From contig NC_058046.1 in assembly GCF_020085105.1 (NCBI RefSeq), positions 15,297,175 through 15,361,174 on the forward strand: 64,000 nucleotides of DNA, given 5' to 3'. Numbering within the stretch: the stretch's first letter is position 1; every line of letters begins with the position of its first letter. The position numbers and the translations under genes are program-made. The notes below the pieces were generated by a model that ran no database searches, was not told where the DNA came from, and saw only the letters and a program-made list of their open reading frames with translations. This document shows, piece by piece, positions 5,499 through 50,300 of this stretch. The DNA is from Siniperca chuatsi (Eukaryota; Chordata; Actinopteri; Centrarchiformes; Sinipercidae).

Positions 5499-10183
<4,685 letters not shown>

Positions 10184-12091: not shown

Positions 12092-15000
12092 ATGAATATA
12101 GGAGTGTTGGCTTTGATTTTCCTGTTTCAACTTCATGGTCAAAGTTTGTGCCAAAATGGAACCAGACCCAACATTGTGATGGTGATGAGTGATGCATTTG
12201 TAAGTATGTTACAGTACAGTGCTTTACTACTGTATACAATAACAGTAGCTTTTGTTTATTTTAGGCTAAAGCACTATGAGAGGACAAGATTAAACTCCAT
12301 ACAGAGATGCTTTATTTTTCCCATTTAATCTTTGTGTGACTGTATATCTCAGTCGGTTTGGGTCTAAATGTCAGTTTTCCTCTTTCTTCAGGATGGGCGA
12401 TTGACCTTTGATCCTGGCAGCAAAGTTGTGCAGCTGCCATATATAAACTACCTCAGGGAGCTCGGTACCACATTTCTCAATGCTTACACCAACTCACCCA
12501 TTTGCTGCCCCTCAAGAGCAGGTAAGTTATCCTCTAAAAGGCTCTGGGGATTTCCCTTTCCCTTGCAATTAGAAATATATTGTGGTATTCAAGATGGTAA
12601 TAAAGGTGGAATAATAAATGTATTTCAACAGTTTAATCTTTGTTCTCAGCAATGTGGAGCGGTCAGTTTGTTCACCTCACTCGGTCATGGAACAACTACA
12701 AGTGCCTCGACGCTAATGCAACAACATGGATGGATTTGCTGGAGGTGAACGGATATTCTACCAAGATGATAGGCAAGCTGGACTACACCTCAGGGAGTCA
12801 CTCTGTCAGGTAGGCAGACACTGTCAGAGATGTGGACAAGAGTGTCTGTAAAGTTGAGCCTGTAACTCAGATAAGTGGGGTCTCAGTTTATTCCTATTCA
12901 CCAAACTCAATATAACACATACACACCAATATACACAGAAAAATTGTTAGTGACCTACTGCATGAATAAGAAGCAACAACATACTGTGAATGTGGGAAGC
13001 TATTTTCCAGAGCAGTGTGAATCATTTTTTTGTCTGCCTGTCCTCACATGTTTTTTTCCACTTCCCATTATTTGTGTCTCTGCCTGCATCTTGTTGGTAT
13101 TTGTGTGTGTTTGTGCAACTTCTGCAGTAATCGAGTTGAGGCCTGGACACGAGATGTTCAGTTTCTCCTGAGCCAAGAGGGCCGGCCTGTTACGCAACTT
13201 GTTGGGAACATGTCAACAGTAAGGATCATGAGAGCAGACTGGAAAAACACAGACACGGCTACACAGTGGATCAACCAGAGAGCTGCATCCTCACACCAGC
13301 CCTTCGCTCTTTATCTTGGCCTCAATTTACCTCACCCCTATAAAACTGAATCCCTGGGGCCCACTGGAGGAGGATCCACCTTTCTTACCTCACCATACTG
13401 GCTGAAAAAGGCATGCTTTTTCTTTCCCTGTTTCTTGAATGTTTTTTCTCCATTATTGCAGAATTTCATTGTATGTTTTTTTTATACAGATCACTATAAA
13501 AGTTCTTATTTTACACACACAGGTGTCTTCTGAGCTCATCACTGTTCCTAAATGGCTGCCTATGGCTGCCATGCACCCTGTTGACTACTACTCCACCTTC
13601 ACCAAAAACTGCAGTGGTGTTTTCACTGAGGAGGAAGTCAAAAGCATAAGAGCCTTCTATTATGCCATGTGTGCTGAAGCAGATGCCATGCTGGGTTAGT
13701 AGACAGCAGTAATTCACCAGGGGGTGGCCTCTCTAAGCAGGAGGTAGTGGGTTTGACAGCTAACTTTGAGCTTAACCCTGGTGTTTTGGGCTCTGTGATA
13801 ACATTTGGAGTACAGCCAGTGTACCACTCTGGCTATAAAACAAGGCTTTGCATAGCAGGCAACAACAGGTAACTAGATTGTTGGCGTATCAGTAATACTA
13901 ATATATACAATTTACAGAGCAACTTGGACTGAATTTCTTTAGCAGTATTACTGTTGATTCAGTGCAGCATGTTTGGCTTCTTTGACTTGAATTACTCTCA
14001 GTGAAACTGCCCGGAATAAATAAAGGCTAAAAAAAATAGTAAATGCTTTTTATAGGCACTATGATATGAAAGTGTCGTAAGATCTATTCCTATTCAGGCT
14101 TTTTTTTAAAGAAGCAAGAAAATCCACACTCTCCTCTCTGTATCAGCAAGAGAAATATTACTGTTAAATGCTCAGTATTGCCCATGTCCATTGTAATTTC
14201 TTCATTCACTTTCCTTCTCAAAGTTACTTAACATGTTATAATATTAAAGTCTATACAATCTTTTCTCTATAGAGTACATGCTTTCTCTGTGTCTCCCACA
14301 CCCTCTGTCTCACCAGGCCAGGTGATTTCAGCTCTGAGAGACAATGGCCTGCTTAACAACACTGTTGTGATCTTCACGGCTGACCACGGAGAGCTAGCCA
14401 TGGAGCACCGGCAGTTCTACAAGATGTCAATGTTTGAAGGCAGTTCCCATGTTCCCCTGCTGGTCATGGGGCCTGGGCTGAGGTCTAGCATGCAGGTCAA
14501 CCAGCTTGTGTCTTTGGTTGATCTCTATCCCACTGTGCTGGGTAAGGAAGTAGACAAAAAACAGAATTAAACTGTCTATTAAATATTTGAAATCATGAAA
14601 ATGTCTGTTGACAGGTAGAATAAAAGCGTTTTAGTAGTCAAGATGTGGAGGATTTGCCTACTGTCAACAGAATAAAAGCACTAGTAGATTTTGATTTCAG
14701 TATTTTAACTTGATGTAACACACTTGTGTATTTTTCAGACATTGCTGGTATTTCAGCAGTAGGTATTCTCAGTGGACACTCGCTCCTTCCTCTGCTATCA
14801 AAGGCCAGTGCTTTTTCCAAGAAGCAACATTCTGACTGGGTTCTGAGTGAATATCATGGTTGTAATGTCAATGCCTCTACATACATGCTGAGAAGTGGCC
14901 GGTGGAAATATATTGCCTATGCAGATGGCCTGAGTGTCCCCCCACAGCTTTTTGGTGAGTACCTAGCTTCAGAAACTAAACTTCAATCACTCATATGCTT

Positions 15001-31500: not shown

Positions 31501-32418
31501 CAAGACACTTAATTAGAATGCTACATTCATCAGAGAGCTGAGGACAACGAATATGCCAGTCATGAACTGGCTAAATTCTTTCAGAGATGCTACAGGAACT
31601 CCTCTTTGCCAAGCATAATCACAATATCAAAGGCCCTTTCATGTCAGAGACAAGTTTCATTTTATCATCTATATTGGAAAACAGAGAGAACAGTTATAGA
31701 TTCAGAACAGAAGTAGGATATTTTTGCCAGCTAATTTCAGCTAGACAACAAACAAGATCCAATTCCTTATGTTTTCGAGAGCTAATGAGCATAGGTGTCA
31801 TTTACATCAACACAGGCGGCACAATTAGGAATACACATAACATGATTCCCGGCCATTTCGTTCACAAGCTCCACTCCTAAATGTAGGCCTGGGTGTATGA
31901 GACATCCTGACAATGCAATGGAAATGATTTTGGTTAACAAGTACCAGGGCTCATGTTACACTTTTGCCCATTTCTGTGTGTGTCGTCTGCAGGGAAACAA
32001 GGCGTTTGTTGGAGAAGCTGGTATACGCCCCCTCTCAAGACTTCCCAGTGACAGTGGTGCAGGTGGCCAGCTGGTACCTCCTCAGACACTTGCATGCCAA
32101 AAACGACCAGGAGCTAATGAATGTGAGCACACAGCTGCCTAATACCTGCAATGCTACCAGATCGAATCATTATTGTGGTGATATATATTAATTTGAAATC
32201 CCTATTTCCAACCATGACCCCAGTGGAAATAGCGGTAGCGCATAAATTAGTCGTACTTATGTTCTTACATCTGTATTGGTTGTTTACTTTCACCAAAACT
32301 TTAATAGTGAACATATTTTCTTCATCTTTTTTTGCAGGTCCTTTTGCAACATGCCAAAATGAATGGAGATCAAAGACTGCTGGAGTTTCATTCACTGCTT
32401 GCCTCTACTTCATCCTGA
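16526..32418 (+). CDS. skic3: SKI complex subunit SKIC3 (TTC37, TPR scaffold)
   Basis: Forty coding exons totalling 4713 nt (1570 aa; human about 1564), all phases consistent; the exon map is in the next entry. The product starts [20 protein letters not shown], as in vertebrate SKIC3/TTC37. It consists almost entirely of tetratricopeptide repeats, recognisable for example as [22 protein letters not shown] near the N-terminus and [15 protein letters not shown] in exon 16. Known role: scaffold of the cytosolic Ski complex with the helicase SKIC2 and the WD40 protein SKIC8, feeding mRNA into the exosome for 3'-5' decay; human loss causes trichohepatoenteric syndrome. Two features are unusual: a GC-AG intron 13 and a weak GTCCGT donor after exon 24. 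The last exon is copied in decayed form at 35288-35360. No frameshift or premature stop was found. Confidence 0.95.
22640..22728. mobile_element. Transposon terminus-like segment in skic3 intron 18
   Basis: Within the roughly 1 kb intron, GGAATTCGGGAC occurs twice in close tandem and the right edge on the minus strand begins AGGGTGACCAGACGTCC, a motif found at ends of vertebrate DNA transposons. The superfamily cannot be named from this fragment. Confidence 0.4.
23650..23775 (+). repeat. tRNA-derived SINE-like remnant in skic3 intron 20
   Basis: Contains a B-box-like GGTTCCATCCCC followed by the phrase GTCCACATGTCGAAGTGTCC and a downstream AAATTGCTCCCAATG, which I recognise as part of a widespread teleost tRNA-derived repeat. 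The 5' A-box portion is not clear, so this is a truncated or diverged copy. Confidence 0.5.
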
Positions 32419-32572
32419 ATTTTGTCTACAACTGCATCGCTATGAAATCATGCATCTTAGCGGGCTTATCCATAGGCTTAAGTGCTCACCAATTCAGCTT
32501 TTCTGGGTCTCTTCACTATATATGAAATCATATCAAACTGGACATTATGGGTCTGATATCATGAATATGACA

Positions 32573-32578
32573 TTTATT
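32573..32578 (-). terminator. gig2a polyadenylation signal AATAAA (minus strand)
   Basis: TTTATT on the plus strand, 317 nt past the gig2a stop codon. The same hexamer in the same surrounding sequence occurs in unit B at 35503-35508, supporting shared use. Confidence 0.45.
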
Positions 32579-32703
32579 GGCTTAACATGATTCTTTGGTT
32601 TTACATTATACAATGTTCAGGAAATCAAATCAATTAAGTAAATCAAAATCACATGTTTCAAAATGCACTTCCCTTAAGTAACCAATGTCCACATTCAGGC
32701 TGA

Positions 32704-32709
32704 AATAAA
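32704..32709 (+). terminator. skic3: skic3 polyadenylation signal AATAAA
   Basis: First plus-strand AATAAA after the skic3 stop at 32416-32418, giving a 3'UTR near 300 nt. It lies past the minus-strand AATAAA of gig2a at 32573-32578, so the two convergent transcripts would overlap. Confidence 0.5.
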
Positions 32710-32894
32710 GACATCTTGCTCAATATATAAAGATTGTCTCATCTTGATTGTACATAATCCTAACCTAATCTAATAGTAAATTTCAGTGCTTTCAATTTCA
32801 GCTTTCGTTTTCTCTCAACCACATAAGAAGGCCATATGGACCTGGATCCTTGTTCCATCTGTTTAACAACAGCACCGTTTTTCCTTACACCCTC

Positions 32895-33581
32895 TCAGTT
32901 GCTAACTGGACAGAAATGTTTGGTCATCAGAGTGCAGATGTTTTGCCCACAGCCCCAGCAAGGTTGCTTGATGTGTGGAGAACCCTGCTGGGTCTTTCTC
33001 TTGCACAGTGAACACACATCTGCAGCACCAGCACCATGCCATGCTGCACCTCCATCTCTACCCCAGGGATTTCTTTGACTATTAGCTACAAGCTGTTGAA
33101 GCTCTGTCAGTACGGGGTCTGGTGCCTTTGCAATGCCTACCACCAATACTCTTTTGGGGTCAAACACGCAATCCTCCTGTAGGCCACTGGGCACTGCTTT
33201 CATGCCACAACCGGGGGGTACCCAAGCAGTGTCGTAGCCCTGTGTGCTCCAGGTGTACTGCATAGGATGGTTGTCCTTGTCAATACGCTTGACACGGCCA
33301 ACACGCACACGTAGCTCAAAGACCACACGGTCTGAAGGGTTATTTTGTAAAGGATAACGTTCGGCCTTCTTCTTATCACGACTGACATACACGCCCTTTC
33401 CCAGCATGCCACCCGATGACTGTTTAAAACCATTGGCAATGATGAGCCGCGCATTGGCAACGCTGGTGCCATGGTACATGGTGTACACGCCACTGTCTTT
33501 GGGCTCCTGAGACGCCCCCAGCTCCACACGAGGAGAGTCATCATCATAAGTCACCTCCCAGCCAAAGAACTGCAGTGACAT
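32895..33581 (-). CDS. Gig2-family PARP-like protein, copy A
   Basis: Single uninterrupted coding exon of 228 aa. It starts MSLQFFGWEV and resembles fish Gig2, the virus/interferon-induced family with a PARP-like fold. Visible PARP-type elements are YHGTS with His37 and GKGVYVS with Tyr65; I cannot identify the third catalytic residue with confidence. After the PARP-like region (about 25-175), residues 190-224 hold Cys190, Cys193, His203, Cys208, Cys211, Cys216, His222 and Cys224, a zinc-ribbon-like pattern close to that at the C-terminus of piggyBac transposases. An acceptor at 33620-33621 and a donor at 34129-34130 indicate one upstream noncoding exon next to an ISRE. The gene runs tail-to-tail against skic3. 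Family role known: interferon-induced antiviral response in fish; the enzyme activity of this copy is not shown. Confidence 0.85.
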   Translation of the reverse strand: MSLQFFGWEVTYDDDSPRVELGASQEPKDSGVYTMYHGTSVANARLIIANGFKQSSGGMLGKGVYVSRDKKKAERYPLQNNPSDRVVFELRVRVGRVKRIDKDNHPMQYTWSTQGYDTAWVPPGCGMKAVPSGLQEDCVFDPKRVLVVGIAKAPDPVLTELQQLVANSQRNPWGRDGGAAWHGAGAADVCSLCKRKTQQGSPHIKQPCWGCGQNICTLMTKHFCPVSN

Positions 33582-33619
33582 CCTGCTTCAACCAGGGAAG
33601 CTGTCCAAGACCAGCAGCT
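33582..33619 (-). other. gig2a 5'UTR portion of the coding exon
   Basis: Bases between the acceptor CTCACAG (minus strand, ending at 33620) and the start codon. The identical acceptor context recurs at 36741 in copy B. Confidence 0.6.
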
Positions 33620-34130
33620 CTGTGAGACATAAATACAAAAATGGCGTCATGTATAAGATTCAAGAGTGATTGCGTGTTACTTTTCATGACCAGTGTTTTA
33701 AAATGTATTGCATGTAGCTTGCCCCTGTCAAATGCCTTTTATGTAGTTGACCCTCATTCGTCACAGAATCTGAGGTAACAAATTTCGGTACATAACGTTA
33801 AAATCTAAATACTATAGGAGACAATATGATTGGTAAAAGCTATCAAAATAAGGTATGCCGTTTGCAGATTCTGGTTTAAGTTAACTGCGTTAATAACCAC
33901 AGGCTAGTTGTCGTTCTTAGCTAGTATGACTTAACGTTAACACTTCAAGTTACGTAGATGTGCTAATACTAATGTAGCTAGGCTATACTAATGTGATGTT
34001 AGGAAAGGCTCAGTAACTATTCCTTAAAACCATAAAACAGACTATGAACAAAATGAACGAATATTAATTTTATATATATTATATATATATAATGTCGTTT
34101 AAACTGATGACTTAACGTTAACTAACTTAC

Positions 34131-34165
34131 CGTCAGTGAGGAGTCGTTTTTTTGTCTCTTACCTC
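34131..34165 (-). other. gig2a noncoding first exon (approximate)
   Basis: A minus-strand donor GACG|GTAAG at 34131/34130 closes a short exon starting just downstream of the ISRE. The same donor context occurs at 38376/38375 in copy B. The transcription start is inferred. Confidence 0.5.
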
Positions 34166-34171
34166 AATAAA

Positions 34172-34181
34172 TTTCACTTTC
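34172..34181 (-). promoter_or_regulatory. ISRE (GAAAGTGAAA) of gig2a
   Basis: The minus-strand GAAAGTGAAA matches the interferon-stimulated response element core GAAANNGAAA bound by STAT1-STAT2-IRF9 or IRFs. It sits about 40 nt upstream of the gig2a first-exon donor. A second IRF-like element, ACTTTCGCTTT on the plus strand, is at 34233-34243. Conservation of the first site in copy B argues for function. Confidence 0.75.
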
Positions 34182-34232
34182 GGTTCAGCAGATTTTAACA
34201 AACTCTGTGTCTGTCTCGCGTCATCGACTTCG

Positions 34233-34243
34233 ACTTTCGCTTT
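34233..34243 (-). promoter_or_regulatory. Second IRF-type element upstream of gig2a
   Basis: Minus-strand AAAGCGAAAGT fits the IRF-binding GAAA repeat. It is about 50 bp upstream of the ISRE. I find no counterpart at the same place in copy B, so copy A may have a stronger promoter. Confidence 0.45.
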
Positions 34244-34318
34244 AAAATGAAAGTAAGAATATATGCCATTCATTCATACCAGACATTCATTTGGACAACT
34301 GTATTGGAAATGGTACAT

Positions 34319-34392
34319 GGCCGGTTAGCTCAGTTGGTTAGAGCGTGGTGCTAATAACGCCAAGGTCGCGGGTTCGATCCCCGTACGGGCCA
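34319..34392 (+). tRNA. tRNA-Ile (anticodon AAT)
   Basis: A 74-nt cloverleaf without intron. The anticodon loop reads CTAATAA with anticodon AAT. Box A (TAGCTCAGTTGG) and box B (GGTTCGATCCC) are intact. Acceptor ends GGCC/GGCC pair with discriminator A, and a short TTTT run follows within 12 nt. The sequence agrees with the canonical vertebrate nuclear tRNA-Ile-AAT as I remember it. Confidence 0.96.
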
Positions 34393-34400
34393 ATACACTT

Positions 34401-35254
34401 TTCTCAACCTCTAATATTAATATTGCCTTGGCATTTTAAAGATACATGAATTCTACTTCTGAATTTAAGATATTTTTTTTGCCTTGTTATAAAACTGAAT
34501 TTAGTCCTGTAGCCTATAACATTTCATGTCAGATGCATGAATTAGAAGAAGGAGGATGGATTAACAACTAGGCAAGGGCCACTATATATATATATTGTAT
34601 CAGCTGACATGATAAGTGCCTTAGGGTCTGTGATGCTTTGGTACCTGATGTTGAGGCCCTGTCTTGAACAGGGGCCCTGTGTTGAAATCGAGCTTTAAGA
34701 GCTTAATTGTCTATTAAATATAGATATTGTGCTTACATGGTGTTTAATCATATTACCACACAGCAGAGTCTGGGGCCAGGTAGTATTCCAGCACAGGAAT
34801 ACTGTATAAAGTGTACAGACATAGGGGGGACATGAAGCTCATTTCTGCCCCGGGGCCCTTTTGCAGGTTAAGCCAGTCATTGTGATGATGTGGCAAGCAT
34901 GGCCAAGTGAACAACCCGATGGAGTGTGCTGCGAGAAGCTGTATCCTTTTTCCTTCTTTTATAACATATACAGTAGTGGTCCCAGATAACAAGGTCATTA
35001 CATTTTGTTACTTCCATTGCTTTACCCTCAGAAATCAAACTACACAGGTTTGTGTCATGTAAAGTGGAAAAATCTTTCTATTTTTGTATCAGCCTGAAAA
35101 AACAAAGACTATTTGATATTCCAGCCTGTCCTCATATCTTCAGTTAGACTTCAGACTGCAGCTGGCAGGTCTGTCTCTCTGTACCATATGCATAGGACAA
35201 TGAATATAGTCACACTGTTAGTCACACCTGCTGCTTAGTTTTCCCCACAACTTT
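34401..35254. other. Spacer between duplication units
   Basis: AT-rich sequence with a short TA repeat near 34584-34595. No gene, tRNA or recognisable transposon end was found, and it has no obvious counterpart in the other unit. Confidence 0.5.
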
Positions 35255-35287
35255 GATTGTTAACATATTCTTTCATTTTTTTTTGCA

Positions 35288-35360
35288 TGTCATTTTGGAA
35301 CCTACAAAAATTAATATTTCATTCGCAGCTTACTACTCTTCACCATCCTGAATTTTGTAA
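35288..35360 (+). pseudogene. Decayed copy of skic3 terminal exon
   Basis: Aligns with skic3 exon 40 (32338-32418) through the shared upstream T tract, the terminal CTTCA.CATCCTGAATTTTG motif around the stop codon, and the following 3' flank. The acceptor AG of the parent is mutated (GCAT in place of GCAG) and the exon interior has lost bases, so it cannot serve as a skic3 exon. Confidence 0.7.
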
Positions 35361-35502
35361 CAGCAAAAGTATTAAATCATGAAGCTATGGGTTTATCTGA
35401 AGGCTGAAGGCATCCCTACTAACTGAGCCTTTCTGAATCTCTTCACTAAATATGGAATCATATCAAACTGGACATTGTGGGTCTGAAAATATAGCAATGG
35501 CA

Positions 35503-35508
35503 TTTATT
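35503..35508 (-). terminator. gig2b polyadenylation signal AATAAA (minus strand)
   Basis: Positionally equivalent to 32573-32578 of unit A and embedded in conserved sequence; 513 nt past the gig2b stop codon. Confidence 0.4.
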
Positions 35509-36020
35509 GGCTTTAGTTCTGTTTCATGATTTAGTATACAGTACATTTAAATCATTTCAGTAATTCATAAAATTACTGTCAGGCAGGAAAAAAGTCAGTT
35601 TGCTTTACATGTGGTGTCTACTCTTGATTGCTTGTGATCATAATGCATGCTGGTCAGAGAATAATATAAAGCTAGTGCAGTAGAAAAAGAAAATGGACAT
35701 AATAGTAAACTTAATGATTTATTGTAAGCTGATATCAATTCATGAATAAGATATCGCAGATCACTTACAGAGATCCCCAAAACATGTCCAGCAGTAACCA
35801 TCTGAACTTGTTGCATCAATTACAGTTACTGCTTTATGGAAGGAAAAGATTGAGACTATGAGTCCTGTTTACAAAGTATGATTACACCGTGAGTTTAGAA
35901 TTACTCTAATCTATATCAGTTTAGTTTTCCCTCCACTCGCCTTCAGCACATACAAAGGCCAGATGGACATGGATTCTCTTAGCATCATGTTTTTCAAACT
36001 ATCTTCTTCCCTCATCCCTG

Positions 36021-36689
36021 TCAGGGTTTGGCTGGACAGAAATGCTTGGACATGAGAATGCAGATGTTTTCCCCACACTTCCAGCACTGTTGCTTGATGT
36101 GTGGCGAACCACGCTGGGTCTTTCTCTTACACAGTGAACACACATCTGCAGCACCACCACCTCCTCCTCTGGGTCTTTTGGATGTTTTTGATAGAAGCTG
36201 TTGAAGCTCTGTCAGTACGGGGTGTGGTGCCATTGCAATGCCTACAACCATCACTCTTTTGGGGTCAAACACACAATCTTCCTCTAGGCCACTGGGCACG
36301 GCTTTGAGGCCACAATTGGGGGGTACCCAAGCTGTGTCATAGCCATTTGCGTGCCAGGTGTACTGCATAGGATGGTTGTCCTTGTCAATACGCTTGACAC
36401 GGCCAACACGCACACGTAGCTCAAAGACCACACGGTCCCCAGCATGACTCCTCAATGGATAATTACATGCCTTTTTCTTATTCCGACTGACATACACGCC
36501 CTTTCCCAGCAAGCCACCTGATGACTGTTTAAAACCACTGGCAATGATGAGCCGTGCGCTGGCAACGCTGGTGCCATGGTACATTCTGTAGACACCCTGT
36601 TGTTGGGGTGTCTGGGACGCCCCCAGCTCCACACCAGGAAAAGAAGCACCATCGTCCACCACCTCCCAGCCAGAGAACTGCAGTGACAT
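36021..36689 (-). CDS. Gig2-family PARP-like protein, copy B
   Basis: Single intact coding exon of 222 aa, closely similar to copy A over its whole length. It has the same start (MSLQF.GWEV), the YHGTS and GKGVYVS elements, the block GRVKRIDKDNHPMQYTW and the same eight Cys/His positions in the C-terminal zinc-ribbon-like tail. Differences are concentrated in the acidic N-terminal loop (residues 11-30) and in a Gly-rich linker before the tail, which is shorter than in copy A. The 5'UTR acceptor is at 36741-36742 and the noncoding first exon is near 38376-38410. No stop or frameshift is present, so the gene is probably functional. Confidence 0.85.
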   Translation of the reverse strand: MSLQFSGWEVVDDGASFPGVELGASQTPQQQGVYRMYHGTSVASARLIIASGFKQSSGGLLGKGVYVSRNKKKACNYPLRSHAGDRVVFELRVRVGRVKRIDKDNHPMQYTWHANGYDTAWVPPNCGLKAVPSGLEEDCVFDPKRVMVVGIAMAPHPVLTELQQLLSKTSKRPRGGGGGAADVCSLCKRKTQRGSPHIKQQCWKCGENICILMSKHFCPAKP

Positions 36690-36875
36690 CCTGGTTTAGG
36701 AATGTGGCTGATTGTTCACGTCCCGTAAAGATCTGCAGCTCTGTGAGAAATTAATTCAGAAACGTAGCATCATGTTATAGCAGATTTTAGAGCAATCAGT
36801 GTAACCTTTAACTTTTAATAACATTTACTTAACAGTAGCATGTAAAAGTCATGGAGCCATTTGGTTAGCCTAACC

Positions 36876-38163
36876 CAGCGGTTCTCAAACTTTTTCTGTC
36901 AATCACCCCGTTGGAAGAAGAAAGAGATACCCCCTCATTCCTAAACACTAAAGCCAATTCGAACTTAATGGAAACAATGTTATCTATTTTGAACTGTGTT
37001 TCTCTTTACATGCATGTTTCTCATTAGGTTTTGTTGTGCAAATGAAAATGCAAATATAAGTCCCCCAACACTTACCATAAAATGAGATTTCAGTCATCCT
37101 TACACTATAAGACATTAGGTAACTATTTACATTTTAATCCAATCAAGGAGTACAGTACATTGTAGGATGCTATTAAAACACACTGCGCCTGACAGCTACA
37201 GTAAATATGGACGTTAGCTAGCGTTGGTGTTAGCGTAGTGTTGACCTAACATTAGTTGACACAGCAACAATGGCTACAGGGAAAAAGGATGACTGTATGA
37301 TCATATTTTCAGATTTTTATATTAATGTGACTACCATAGCTGTTGATCTCAACGCAGCTGGCTACATAGCTAGCTAGCCACAAGTACCCTTGGCGAAGTG
37401 TCTCATAATAGGGCTAACGTTAGACTGCTATGTGAGATGAAACCCTCAATAACAGTTAAGTTTTGGGTCTAAATACTATAATGAACAGTTTACAGTAGTT
37501 CTGAACTTTAATTTACCTTCGACATGACATATTGGTAATATATTGGGATCACATGTCCACTCTGTTCTTAAAGAAGGGCGACCGTTTTTTCATAAGCGGA
37601 CCAGTCCGTCACTGGCATTTTGGACCCATCAAAATTTTTAAAATGATTAATTCACGATCATAATTATTTTTCATTTTTTTGGAAAAGTGATACTTTTATT
37701 CCGCACCTTTCTAAAAGCTTTGTGGATGTATTAAACAAATATCTACATAAAAAATTATCAATATTACCTTTAAAATCTTATTTATGTGTCTTAGTATGCA
37801 CTGAATTTATTTTGTAACTTATTTTTTAACTTATCTCCTTTTAATGTTTTATTTAAAGCACTCTGAATAGCCTAGTTGTTGAGAGGTGCTATACAAATGA
37901 ACTTGCCTTGTGTCTTTTTTTGCTTCCTAATATTTTTGGATTTGAGTGACATTGAATCACCTGTGTTTACTTCCTTGTCAGAAGTCTGTCCATCTTGCTT
38001 TGCTGTCTCAATAAATGTTGCTAACCATGCTAGTTGCTCAGTGCACTCTTATTCGGTTAGTGTTCCTTTATTAATCATATTAATTCAGCTTTACTTCGAA
38101 TGCCCCTCACACTCTTTCCTGTATGTCCCTCCAGTGGGGCAGCCCCCACTTTGTGAACCACTG
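36876..38163. mobile_element. hAT-like non-autonomous element in gig2b 5'UTR intron
   Basis: The left end starts CAGCGGTTCTCAAACT and the right end, read on the minus strand, starts CAGTGGTTCACAAAGT; these are imperfect terminal inverted repeats of the Charlie/hAT type. The interior of about 1.25 kb has no transposase that I recognise. The flanking 8-mers (GCCTAACC and GCCTTGAT) share only four bases, so the target-site duplication is decayed or an edge is off. No counterpart is present in unit A. Confidence 0.6.
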
Positions 38164-38375
38164 GCCTTGATGATAACTTATATAACCATATTTGTGGTCC
38201 GTGTGTGTCAGAACATTATATATCGTTCAAATAAAACTCAGGACCCAGGACGACTACACTATCGACTACGACTATCATTCTACATTATACTGTTTATGAC
38301 GTGTTATCTTGTTGACTTTCTCTTTAAATCTAGCAAAATACAAGTACCTTTAAGGTTAAAACATTTAAACCTTAC

Positions 38376-38410
38376 CGTCAGTGAAGAGTTTTGTCTCTGT
38401 CAGCCCAGTA
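38376..38410 (-). other. gig2b noncoding first exon (approximate)
   Basis: Donor TGACG|GTAAG (minus strand, 38376/38375) and surrounding sequence match the gig2a first exon. The start is inferred from the position of the ISRE. Confidence 0.45.
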
Positions 38411-38412
38411 TC

Positions 38413-38422
38413 TTTCACTTTC
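38413..38422 (-). promoter_or_regulatory. ISRE (GAAAGTGAAA) of gig2b
   Basis: Identical 10-mer to the gig2a ISRE, in an equivalent place relative to the first-exon donor, flanked here by further GAAA-type bases (AAAGAAAGTGAAAGA). This is the best conserved non-coding piece of the duplication. Confidence 0.75.
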
Positions 38423-38477
38423 TTTTTAGTAGGTTTCATTTATAGTTTTGATTACGTCATAGTCAACACAAGCCATG

Positions 38478-38551
38478 TTCTGTAATCTCAGTCGGTTAGC
38501 GCGTGGTGCTAATAACGCCAAGGTTTCGGGTTCGATCCCCGTACGGGTCAT
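38478..38551 (+). pseudogene. Degenerate tRNA-Ile (AAT) relic
   Basis: Matches the tRNA-Ile at 34319-34392 from the D-loop to the 3' end, with the AAT anticodon and box B intact. The 5' acceptor strand and box A have diverged, the acceptor stem no longer pairs well, and no TTTT terminator follows closely. It is the tRNA copy carried in duplication unit B. Confidence 0.8.
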
Positions 38552-38552
38552 G

Positions 38553-39470: not shown

Positions 39471-39543
39471 GCCGAAATAGCTCAGTTGGGAGAGCGTTAG
39501 ACTGAAGATCTAAAGGTCCCTGGTTCGATCCCGGGTTTCGGCA
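39471..39543 (+). tRNA. tRNA-Phe (anticodon GAA)
   Basis: A 73-nt intronless cloverleaf with anticodon loop CTGAAGA. The acceptor stem GCCGAAA/TTTCGGC pairs fully, boxes A and B are intact, discriminator is A, and TTTT follows within about 10 nt. Confidence 0.96.
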
Positions 39544-47387: not shown

Positions 47388-50300
47388 TGTGCGTTAAGAC
47401 AAAGGAGGGGTAAGGATTAGGTTAGGGTTGTAGGTTTTGTTACTTAGTGTAATACGGCATAATTTAAGAAATATAAGAAATAGATTAAGAGTGTACAACC
47501 ATGTTAGCGGGTCTTTGAGTCTGTACTTAGGCTAAGCGGTGCTTTGCACTAAATGGTAATGCCAGCATGCTAACACACTCACAATGATAATGCTAACATG
47601 CAGATGTTTAACAGGTATAATGTTTAACATGTTCATCATCTTAGTTTAGCGTGTTAGCATGCTAACATTTGCTAATTAGCACTAAACACAAAGTACAGCT
47701 GAAGCTGATGGGAATATTATTCACTATGCAGGTATTTGGTCATGAACCAAAGTATTGGGCAAATTGAAATTTTTAGTAAATGATGGCACTAGATGAAAAG
47801 TTCAGGGATGAACAAATTTAGACCAAAATTTAATGGCAATCCATCAAACAGTTGTTGAGACATTTCACTCAAAACCACAAATGCCAACCTGCTGGTGGCG
47901 CTAGAGGAAAAGTCAGAGGATCACCAAAGTCATTAGGAATCATCCTCTGGGAACTATGAACGTCTGTACTAGATTGTGTGACAATCCATCCAGTAGATGT
48001 TGTGATATTTTACAGGATAAGTGAAAACTTTTACCAGCTGGTGGCACTAGATGAAAAGTTGGGGGATCACCAAAGTATGAAGGGTTCATCCTCTGGACAC
48101 AATAAAGTCTGTACCAAATTTCATGGCAATCGATCCAATAGTTGTTCGGGACATGTCACTAAAAAACAAAAATGTCAACCTGCTGGTGGTGCTAGAGGAA
48201 ATGTCAGAGGATCATCAAAGTCATTAGGTTCATCCTCTGAGGACCACGAAATTCTGAACAAAATTTCATAGTAATCCATTGAATAGTTGTTCAGATATTT
48301 CCGCCTGGACCGAAGTGGTGTACTGACCGATTGACATACATTTCCATCCCTAGAGCCATGCTGCTGTCATGGCATCATAAAAATATGCAATGTACCATTC
48401 TAGTTTTGCAATATTACAGATTTCAGAATGTTCCCTCTTGCACAGTTCTGCCAAGTTGTCTTGAATGCCACAGAGAGAAAGAGGAATTTTGATATGTTCA
48501 AGTATATCAGAGGATTGATTTTCAGATTTTCTTTTTGGCACTGGTGTAGCTGCTTTGTACATAATGTGGACTTCAGCTAAACTGCAGCCTTATGTTTCGT
48601 TTGCCAAACCCTTTGTCAGCACTGATGCACCATCTCTTACCTTGACTTCCAGCTCTTTGAGCCTCACATCCACAGCTGACCTGAGCTCTGCCACCTCCTT
48701 CTGCAGGCTAATCAGCTGCTGCTCCCCAGAGCTCACGTCAGCACTCAGCTGGGTGATGCTGGCATCACACCTGATAATAGGAGGGGAAGCAGAGAGGGAC
48801 CACTGAATGAAAATTGTGGGATGAGGAGGGAGTTAGGGAAAGGTGTGAAGACAGGGAGATGAGCAAAAGGCTGGAGAAATCAGGGAATTTTACTTCAGAT
48901 GGTAGACAAACAGGCAGATAGATGGAAAAAAAATCAGACAGCTGCCCTTATCAATACTTTCCAAGGCGAGCTGATGGAAGACAAAAGAAGGTTCCGCTGA
49001 ATCCTGAGTAGTGATAGTTTATCCTTTGAATGCTGAACAAACACATTTGAATGTTCCAGTTGGTACATGTTTGTATGTTTGTGTGTGTGCCAATATATTT
49101 GTGATAAAATACAATGTGAGCTCATCAACCACATCCAGCAGCTAATTGTGGAGAGGCCCAGTATGAAATTTGGGTTATTTCCCCTGTAGATCACTACAGT
49201 TTTTCCATAAAGGGATTCACAGAACAATACAGTTTATCAAAAACCACTGGCCCTTAACTTACTTCATTATTTATGACTAACGTACAAGAAGTCATTAGAC
49301 TGAGTGGGTGAAGTTTTTCTACAGCCTTTATTGGACCATAAATCAACTGTTTGTTGAGTAATAGGCAATATCTCTTCTCACCACTGACCTCTTAAACGCC
49401 ACAGCGGAGGCAGGTCTACTGTGAAACAGGATGTTCACAAAACAACACTACATCTTTGACCTACTGTCTGATGAGAAATGACATTATCTCAGATGTATTG
49501 ACCAATGATTGCCAGGGATGTTCAAAATAATTCAGCCTAGATAGCTACACAGTAAAAACACCACTCCTAATGCAAGTCCTGTTAAGCAGAGCACAAAGAT
49601 GACAGCCTCTCCTCAGCAATCCAATCTAACAATTGCACAATCTGCTCAGACACAAAATAATGAGCAAGTGCTAATCAGCATCTCAAGTGTGTTCAAACCT
49701 AGAAACCTCACTCTGGTGAGAACAAAATAATGAATGTGTGCATCTCTTTGAGAGTGTCAGAGGTGATGCCATGGCAGATTAGAAGTTGTGAGACTGTGAA
49801 GAGCTGCCAGACAGGATACAGGCTATACAATTTCACTTCATTAGAGGTAGAGAAAAACAAGTAGGACATCAGCAAGTAAACTTAATCAGTCAAATCACTT
49901 GTGCATCAGACCTGGGTCTAAATAATTGTACAACTCCTCCAAATAATGTTTTGGAGGAAAGTTTCAATCTGCTAGCACTTGCAAGTCATTACATTGCTGT
50001 ATTTGTTAACACTCTGTACAGTTTGTACCTCAGCGTTTGCATACATTGTTTGACACAGGCCTGGTGTGCATACCTGGCTACTCTTCCTCTCAGGTCTCCA
50101 ATGATAGCCATGTTCTTCTGGTCCAGGTTTTGAACAGCCATTGTGGTTCCAGAGGTGATGGAGTCCCGCTGAGCGATCTGTCTCTCCAGGGCCTGCTCCA
50201 AACAAAGAGAGCATATTTGTCTATTTTATGTTAAAGGAATGCAAAAAAAATTTCAGCAAGTTAATGTGGAATAAAACACAGATGCGGAAATATACAAATA

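Follow-up and report, generated by a model that had tools for sequence, protein, structure and literature searches.

How did two gig2 genes come to stand in tandem beside the last exon of skic3 (ttc37) in the fish Siniperca chuatsi, each accompanied by skic3 sequence on one side and by a tRNA-Ile sequence on the other, and why are only the gig2 genes intact in both places? The window in which this question arises is the 64,000-nucleotide stretch of contig C5 from 15297175 to 15361174, in whose own numbering positions are given below; it belongs to a genome of 718.8 Mb in 65 contigs, the only fish genome covered by our genome searches. Very probably, the locus as a whole reflects an old tandem segmental duplication in which gig2 was retained and its passengers decayed. 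The original prediction had seen here a segmental duplication kept for an immune gene: the duplication and the retention of gig2 hold, and the designation "immune gene", an antiviral role and induction by interferon are suggested by family resemblance and a promoter motif.

Two units of the same content and order

Comparison of the window with itself by blastn yields four colinear, same-strand blocks whose order is kept in unit 1 (32288-34392, with limits that also take account of the boundary sequences) and unit 2 (35240-38550). The first block (32288-32648 vs 35240-35570; 69% identity with gaps counted, E-value 8e-46) comprises the end of the last skic3 intron, the last exon and its 3' flank; the second (32792-33684 vs 35910-36809; 78%, E 0) the gig2 coding exon and its surroundings; the third (34126-34195 vs 38371-38436; 73%, E 1e-6) exon 1 and the promoter region of gig2; and the fourth (34316-34392 vs 38474-38550; 87%, E 3e-18) the tRNA. 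This is the common order that had been predicted (skic3 exon, minus-strand gig2, exon with an interferon-stimulated response element (ISRE), tRNA-Ile), at positions that prove correct to within about 8 bases. Colinear similarity above that of shuffled sequence extends beyond the gig2 coding sequence, with z values of 23.5 for the skic3 block, 7.9 for exon 1/ISRE and 16.7 for the tRNA; it starts about 50 bp ahead of the skic3 exon and stops at the 3' end of the tRNA.

The passengers differ in state between the units. In unit 1, the last coding exon of skic3 (32338-32418, plus strand; located by phmmer, with limits read from the sequence) is intact and ends in a TGA stop at 32416-32418; joined to the preceding exons, it matches the C-terminal sequence of the solved SKIC3/TTC37 protein up to residue 1567 of 1568 (phmmer, E 3e-29). 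Its counterpart in unit 2 is a relic (35289-35352, plus strand) that has AT in place of the acceptor AG, lacks 20 bases and has lost the frame. Likewise, the tRNA-Ile (AAT) of unit 1 (34319-34392, plus strand) is called by ARAGORN and, at the gathering score, by Rfam, and its copy in unit 2 (38477-38550, plus strand), with 10 of 74 bases changed and two of four D-stem pairs lost, does not form a recognised cloverleaf and is called by neither program. That second copy has also lost one acceptor pair, and another, unpaired in copy 1, has become T-G; its anticodon stem is unchanged and its T stem is without its G-T pair. The decay of the second skic3 exon and of the second tRNA had thus been read correctly from the start, as had the integrity of both gig2 frames: copy a (32895-33581, minus strand) encodes 228 amino acids with a PARP-like domain and a Cys-rich C-terminus, and copy b (36021-36689, minus strand) is open over 222 amino acids.

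In both units, fitting splice sites and sequence similarity agree with a predicted gene structure of a short noncoding exon 1 and a single coding exon 2. The putative intron 1 of gig2a (33620-34130, minus strand) has a GTAAG donor and a CACAG acceptor, and the exon 1 region delimited by segment comparison (34131-34181, minus strand) carries an ISRE-type GAAAGTGAAA at 34172-34181; in gig2b, the corresponding intron, likewise read from the sequence, spans 36741-38375 (minus strand) and the exon 1 region 38376-38422 (minus strand), with GAAAGTGAAA at 38413-38422. The motif thus occupies an identical aligned place in both units, and two of the window's 17 GAAANNGAAA sites have this form; it supports, and does not establish, interferon control of the two copies. 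The greater length of unit 2 is mainly due to an insertion in gig2b intron 1 (36876-38163), possibly hAT-like and perhaps composed of more than one element. It has inverted ends, CAGCGGTTCTCAAA and CAGTGGTTCACAAA, and an interior (about 37066-37784) that matches dispersed repeats, with 76 matches including itself among those listed (best 40 of 876 candidates scored). No clean target-site duplication was seen around 36876-38163, and the end motif was absent at the three other repeat loci examined.

Constraint on gig2 and divergence of its passengers

Between the two copies, the gig2 coding sequence is 85% identical (Kimura two-parameter distance (K2P) 0.165) and the proteins are 78% identical. 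Silent sites have diverged at close to the rate of the flanks and amino-acid sites are constrained, as indicated by 0.305 synonymous (dS) against 0.156 nonsynonymous (dN) substitutions per site (dN/dS 0.51; Fisher test on rounded counts, p 0.0018). Survival of an open frame of at least 200 codons was also simulated for one neutrally evolving exon copy, with 5000 runs per setting: at 0.13 substitutions per site, the frame was retained in 173/5000 runs without indels and in 2/5000 at the indel rate of the skic3 block; at 0.15 substitutions per site and an indel rate of 0.005, it was retained in 33/5000. Relative to four of eight homologous rows from contig C21 used as outgroups, a Tajima-type count gave no clear difference in rate between the copies (4 unique changes in a; 8, 9, 6 and 6 in b; chi-square at most 1.9).

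Elsewhere in the units, identity is 78% for the skic3 intron end, exon and flank (336 aligned columns, 12 gap events; K2P 0.267), 75% for the flank past the gig2 stop (K2P 0.304), 76% for exon 1/ISRE (K2P 0.296), 89.5% for the 5' untranslated region (UTR) of exon 2, over just 38 columns, and 86.5% over the 74 columns of the tRNA (K2P 0.149). The differences between the tRNAs are fewer than an assumed neutral divergence of 25% predicts (10/74; binomial P 0.012), and most of them, 7 of 10, are concentrated at the start, within bases 1 to 25 (Fisher p 0.026), as if copy 2 had been constrained during part of its history.

The skic3 flank, too, may be other than a neutral bystander. An AATAAA on the gig2 strand, a candidate poly(A) signal of gig2a, lies within it at 32573-32578 (minus strand) and is aligned with an AATAAA at 35503-35508 (minus strand) in unit 2; with this hexamer at the identical aligned place in both units, the "skic3 flank" may in fact be gig2 3' UTR. 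A candidate poly(A) signal of skic3 itself, found by hexamer scan, is at 32704-32709 (plus strand), so placed that the convergent transcripts of gig2 and skic3 may overlap at their 3' ends. The proposal that the two passengers provide an internal neutral clock consequently finds no support: they disagree (K2P 0.267 for the skic3 block vs 0.149 for the tRNA), the tRNA appears partly constrained, and the flank described as unrelated to gig2 perhaps belongs to it. Substitution rates in fish are assumed here to be 2-4e-9 per site per year, at which K values of 0.27-0.30 would correspond, roughly, to 35-75 million years.

Had gene conversion partly homogenised the gig2 copies, the event would be older than their coding divergence implies. 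What suggests this is the longest identical tract, 84 bp in length (33250-33333 = 36355-36438), which only 6/20000 codon shuffles reach; the hint exists at the nucleotide level and is gone at silent sites, where the longest stretch without a difference, 27 of 163 codons (22 differ), is ordinary (p 0.30), and conversion as read from this tract was rejected on that ground. The tract can be produced by amino-acid constraint, and gig2 dS (0.305) is about equal to the divergence of the flanks (0.27-0.30); conversion between the copies is possible, and we consider it unlikely to have shaped them.

Boundaries, spacer and the probable course of the duplication

Between the units lies a spacer of 847 bp (34393-35239) that includes a dispersed repeat at about 34598-34830, for which 40 genome matches are listed including itself (best 40 of 114 candidates scored). 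Because this spacer parts the units, and because similarity stops at the 3' end of the tRNA, gig2b and its neighbours could be imagined to derive from a separate insertion, with the tRNA arriving independently. Against this, order, orientation and neighbours agree in both units, and the skic3 block matched nothing in the genome but the two C5 units (best 40 of 47 candidates), which leaves separate insertion a distinctly improbable origin. The tRNA part, in the same search (best 40 of 47 candidates), has matches on C5, C15, C22 and a C24 array; with matches limited to these contigs among the candidates listed, the chance origin of two such tRNAs within 4 kb is unlikely. The C24 array, at about 5.18-5.28 Mb, consists of many tRNA-Ile-like copies arranged as one block per strand. 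Within the window, a tRNA-Phe (GAA) is called by ARAGORN and Rfam at 39471-39543, about 0.9 kb past unit 2.

That unit 2 is merely an uncollapsed haplotype of unit 1, tandem similar units being a usual class of assembly artefact, is practically excluded: coding sequence differs by 15% and flanking sequence by 22-25%, one unit has the repeat insertion, and alleles do not differ that far.

Several observations nevertheless weigh against the tandem duplication as outlined, or against particular parts of it. The spacer shows no convincing similarity to the DNA upstream or downstream, and since it has no counterpart after unit 2, a simple head-to-tail duplication requires a loss or an insertion in addition. 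Intron 1, once the insertion is removed, aligns weakly (70% identity, K2P 0.38; z only 5.0 vs shuffled sequence). Poly(A) hexamers occur about once per kb and strand, and GAAANNGAAA sites are common, with 17 in the window; on the coding strand of nine C21 gig2 loci, GAAANNGAAA is found, within 3.1-3.4 kb each, in only two (L013 and L018). An interpretation of the spacer as the lost end of the unit was rejected, for want of a convincing match to the DNA on either side. A further hexamer of the gig2-strand type is found in unit 2 at 35718.

Under the tandem duplication, which we continue to prefer, the following order of events can be inferred. A block of about 2.1 kb that starts within the last skic3 intron and ends with the tRNA-Ile would have been duplicated in direct orientation, its second copy now lying about 850 bases downstream of the first. 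The block would have brought with it a complete gig2 of interferon type (promoter element, noncoding exon 1, intron and coding exon 2) and probably the gig2 3' UTR, seemingly convergent into the 3' end of skic3. Unit 1 contains both the skic3-completing exon and the tRNA that is called; the counterparts in unit 2 would have been useless and have decayed, and purifying selection has preserved both gig2 copies; later, about 1.3 kb of repeats would have entered intron 1 of gig2b.

Relation to other Gig2 loci

The name gig2 rests on the PARP-like match, on gene structure and on eight longer matches on C21, which are 50-56% identical and are located between a C2H2 gene and an XYLT1-like frame. The stretch resembling the PARP catalytic domain is N-terminal and matches PF00644 above the curated cut-off in both copies (E 3.2e-9 for a, 9.5e-7 for b). 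YHGT and GVY of gig2 can be set against the H-Y-E catalytic residues of PARP3 in a weak alignment (E 0.007), and the third residue presumably lies in EDCVFD. At this presumed position, both C5 copies have Glu and the C21 copies L017 and L018 have Val, so that catalysis may be altered in part of the family. A structure prediction from a two-row alignment, the first Met being left out, reached a mean predicted local distance difference test (pLDDT) score of 37.6.

Of the 11 gig2 matches found by a protein search of the genome (12/12 candidates scored), two are on C5; the other nine lie at 2.23-2.27 Mb of C21. The two C5 copies form a clade of their own (support 100/100) in a tree of ten genomic rows, the remainder being eight of the nine C21 matches. 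This pair is set apart by a Cys-rich C-terminus of about 45 residues (CxxC ... CxxC ... C ... HxC; 32898-33029 and 36024-36155, minus strand) that is present in 0/8 of the C21 rows compared. No solved relative of this region was found with the one of the two copies searched, and its Pfam matches are all sub-threshold, with copy a closest to FYVE (0.052) and copy b to DZR (0.032). Searches of viral contigs for gig2 relatives returned 22 pattern matches with the two C5 copies as query and 116 with five of the ten rows, none of them confirmed.

The C21 cluster is bordered on one side by a 517-codon frame with C2H2 zinc fingers and on the other by a frame, without a Pfam match, that we take to encode the N-terminus of XYLT1; no tRNA was found in its two 9.9-kb flanks, between which the cluster itself lay outside the scan. 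Apparently, this cluster is the known ZG57-Gig2-XYLT1 locus, since its gene order agrees with the table in PMC9122973 (Graham et al. 2022), and it is to C21, not to the C5 pair, that the flounder locus described there appears to correspond. Flounder Gig2 consists of a small noncoding exon 1 and a coding exon 2, and the Gig2-derived antifreeze genes of flounder were amplified along with pieces of the flanking genes ZG57 and XYLT1 (PMC9122973); the predicted exon structure and the co-amplification of neighbouring fragments are points of likeness, and that article's text mentions neither tetratricopeptide nor superkiller nor tRNA. Tandem expansion of the Gig2 family, and two sets of teleost chromosomes, have been described (Zhang et al. 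2013, PMC3617106). As here, that study involves non-amniote Gig2, a PARP-like N-terminus, lineage-specific tandem duplication and two chromosome sets; unlike the clusters reported there, the C5 pair adjoins skic3 and was duplicated along with a tRNA and a portion of the adjacent gene, and ttc37, intron and ISRE are absent from the main text of PMC3617106. In PMC9503650, Gig2 is named in a reference only. The open-licence library searched yielded no paper joining gig2 with ttc37, or skic3 with teleost.

This kind of event is already known and ordinary in such gene families. In segmental duplications generally, a complete gene is retained and a truncated neighbour decays, and nothing of principle differs here. 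The locus is a clear example of this, with an immune-type duplicate kept and truncated or redundant passengers in decay; it also marks a second Gig2 locus, adjoining skic3, with a C-terminal region missing from the C21 rows compared, and illustrates that the passengers of a duplication are not automatically neutral clocks. Much more speculative, and in our estimate a long shot, is the joint proposal that overlapping gig2a and skic3 3' ends cause an antisense conflict relieved by gig2b and that the C5 pair is a separate Gig2 subtype. If it were true, interferon-driven transcription of gig2a would generate RNA antisense to the 3' UTR of skic3, which encodes a subunit of the SKI complex; gig2b would face a dead skic3 relic alone, freeing the immune gene from that conflict; and the C5 subtype would combine its PARP-like domain with a C-terminus that is rich in Cys, may bind zinc and is unseen in the C21 copies.

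Upstream of skic3, the window further contains a frame with an arrestin C-terminal domain (6678-7043, minus strand; Pfam) and a frame at 12368-12745 (plus strand), without a Pfam match, whose CCPSR we take to be a sulfatase motif, perhaps of arsk. A tandem array of 3.3 copies of a 145-bp unit is found at 47824-48301.

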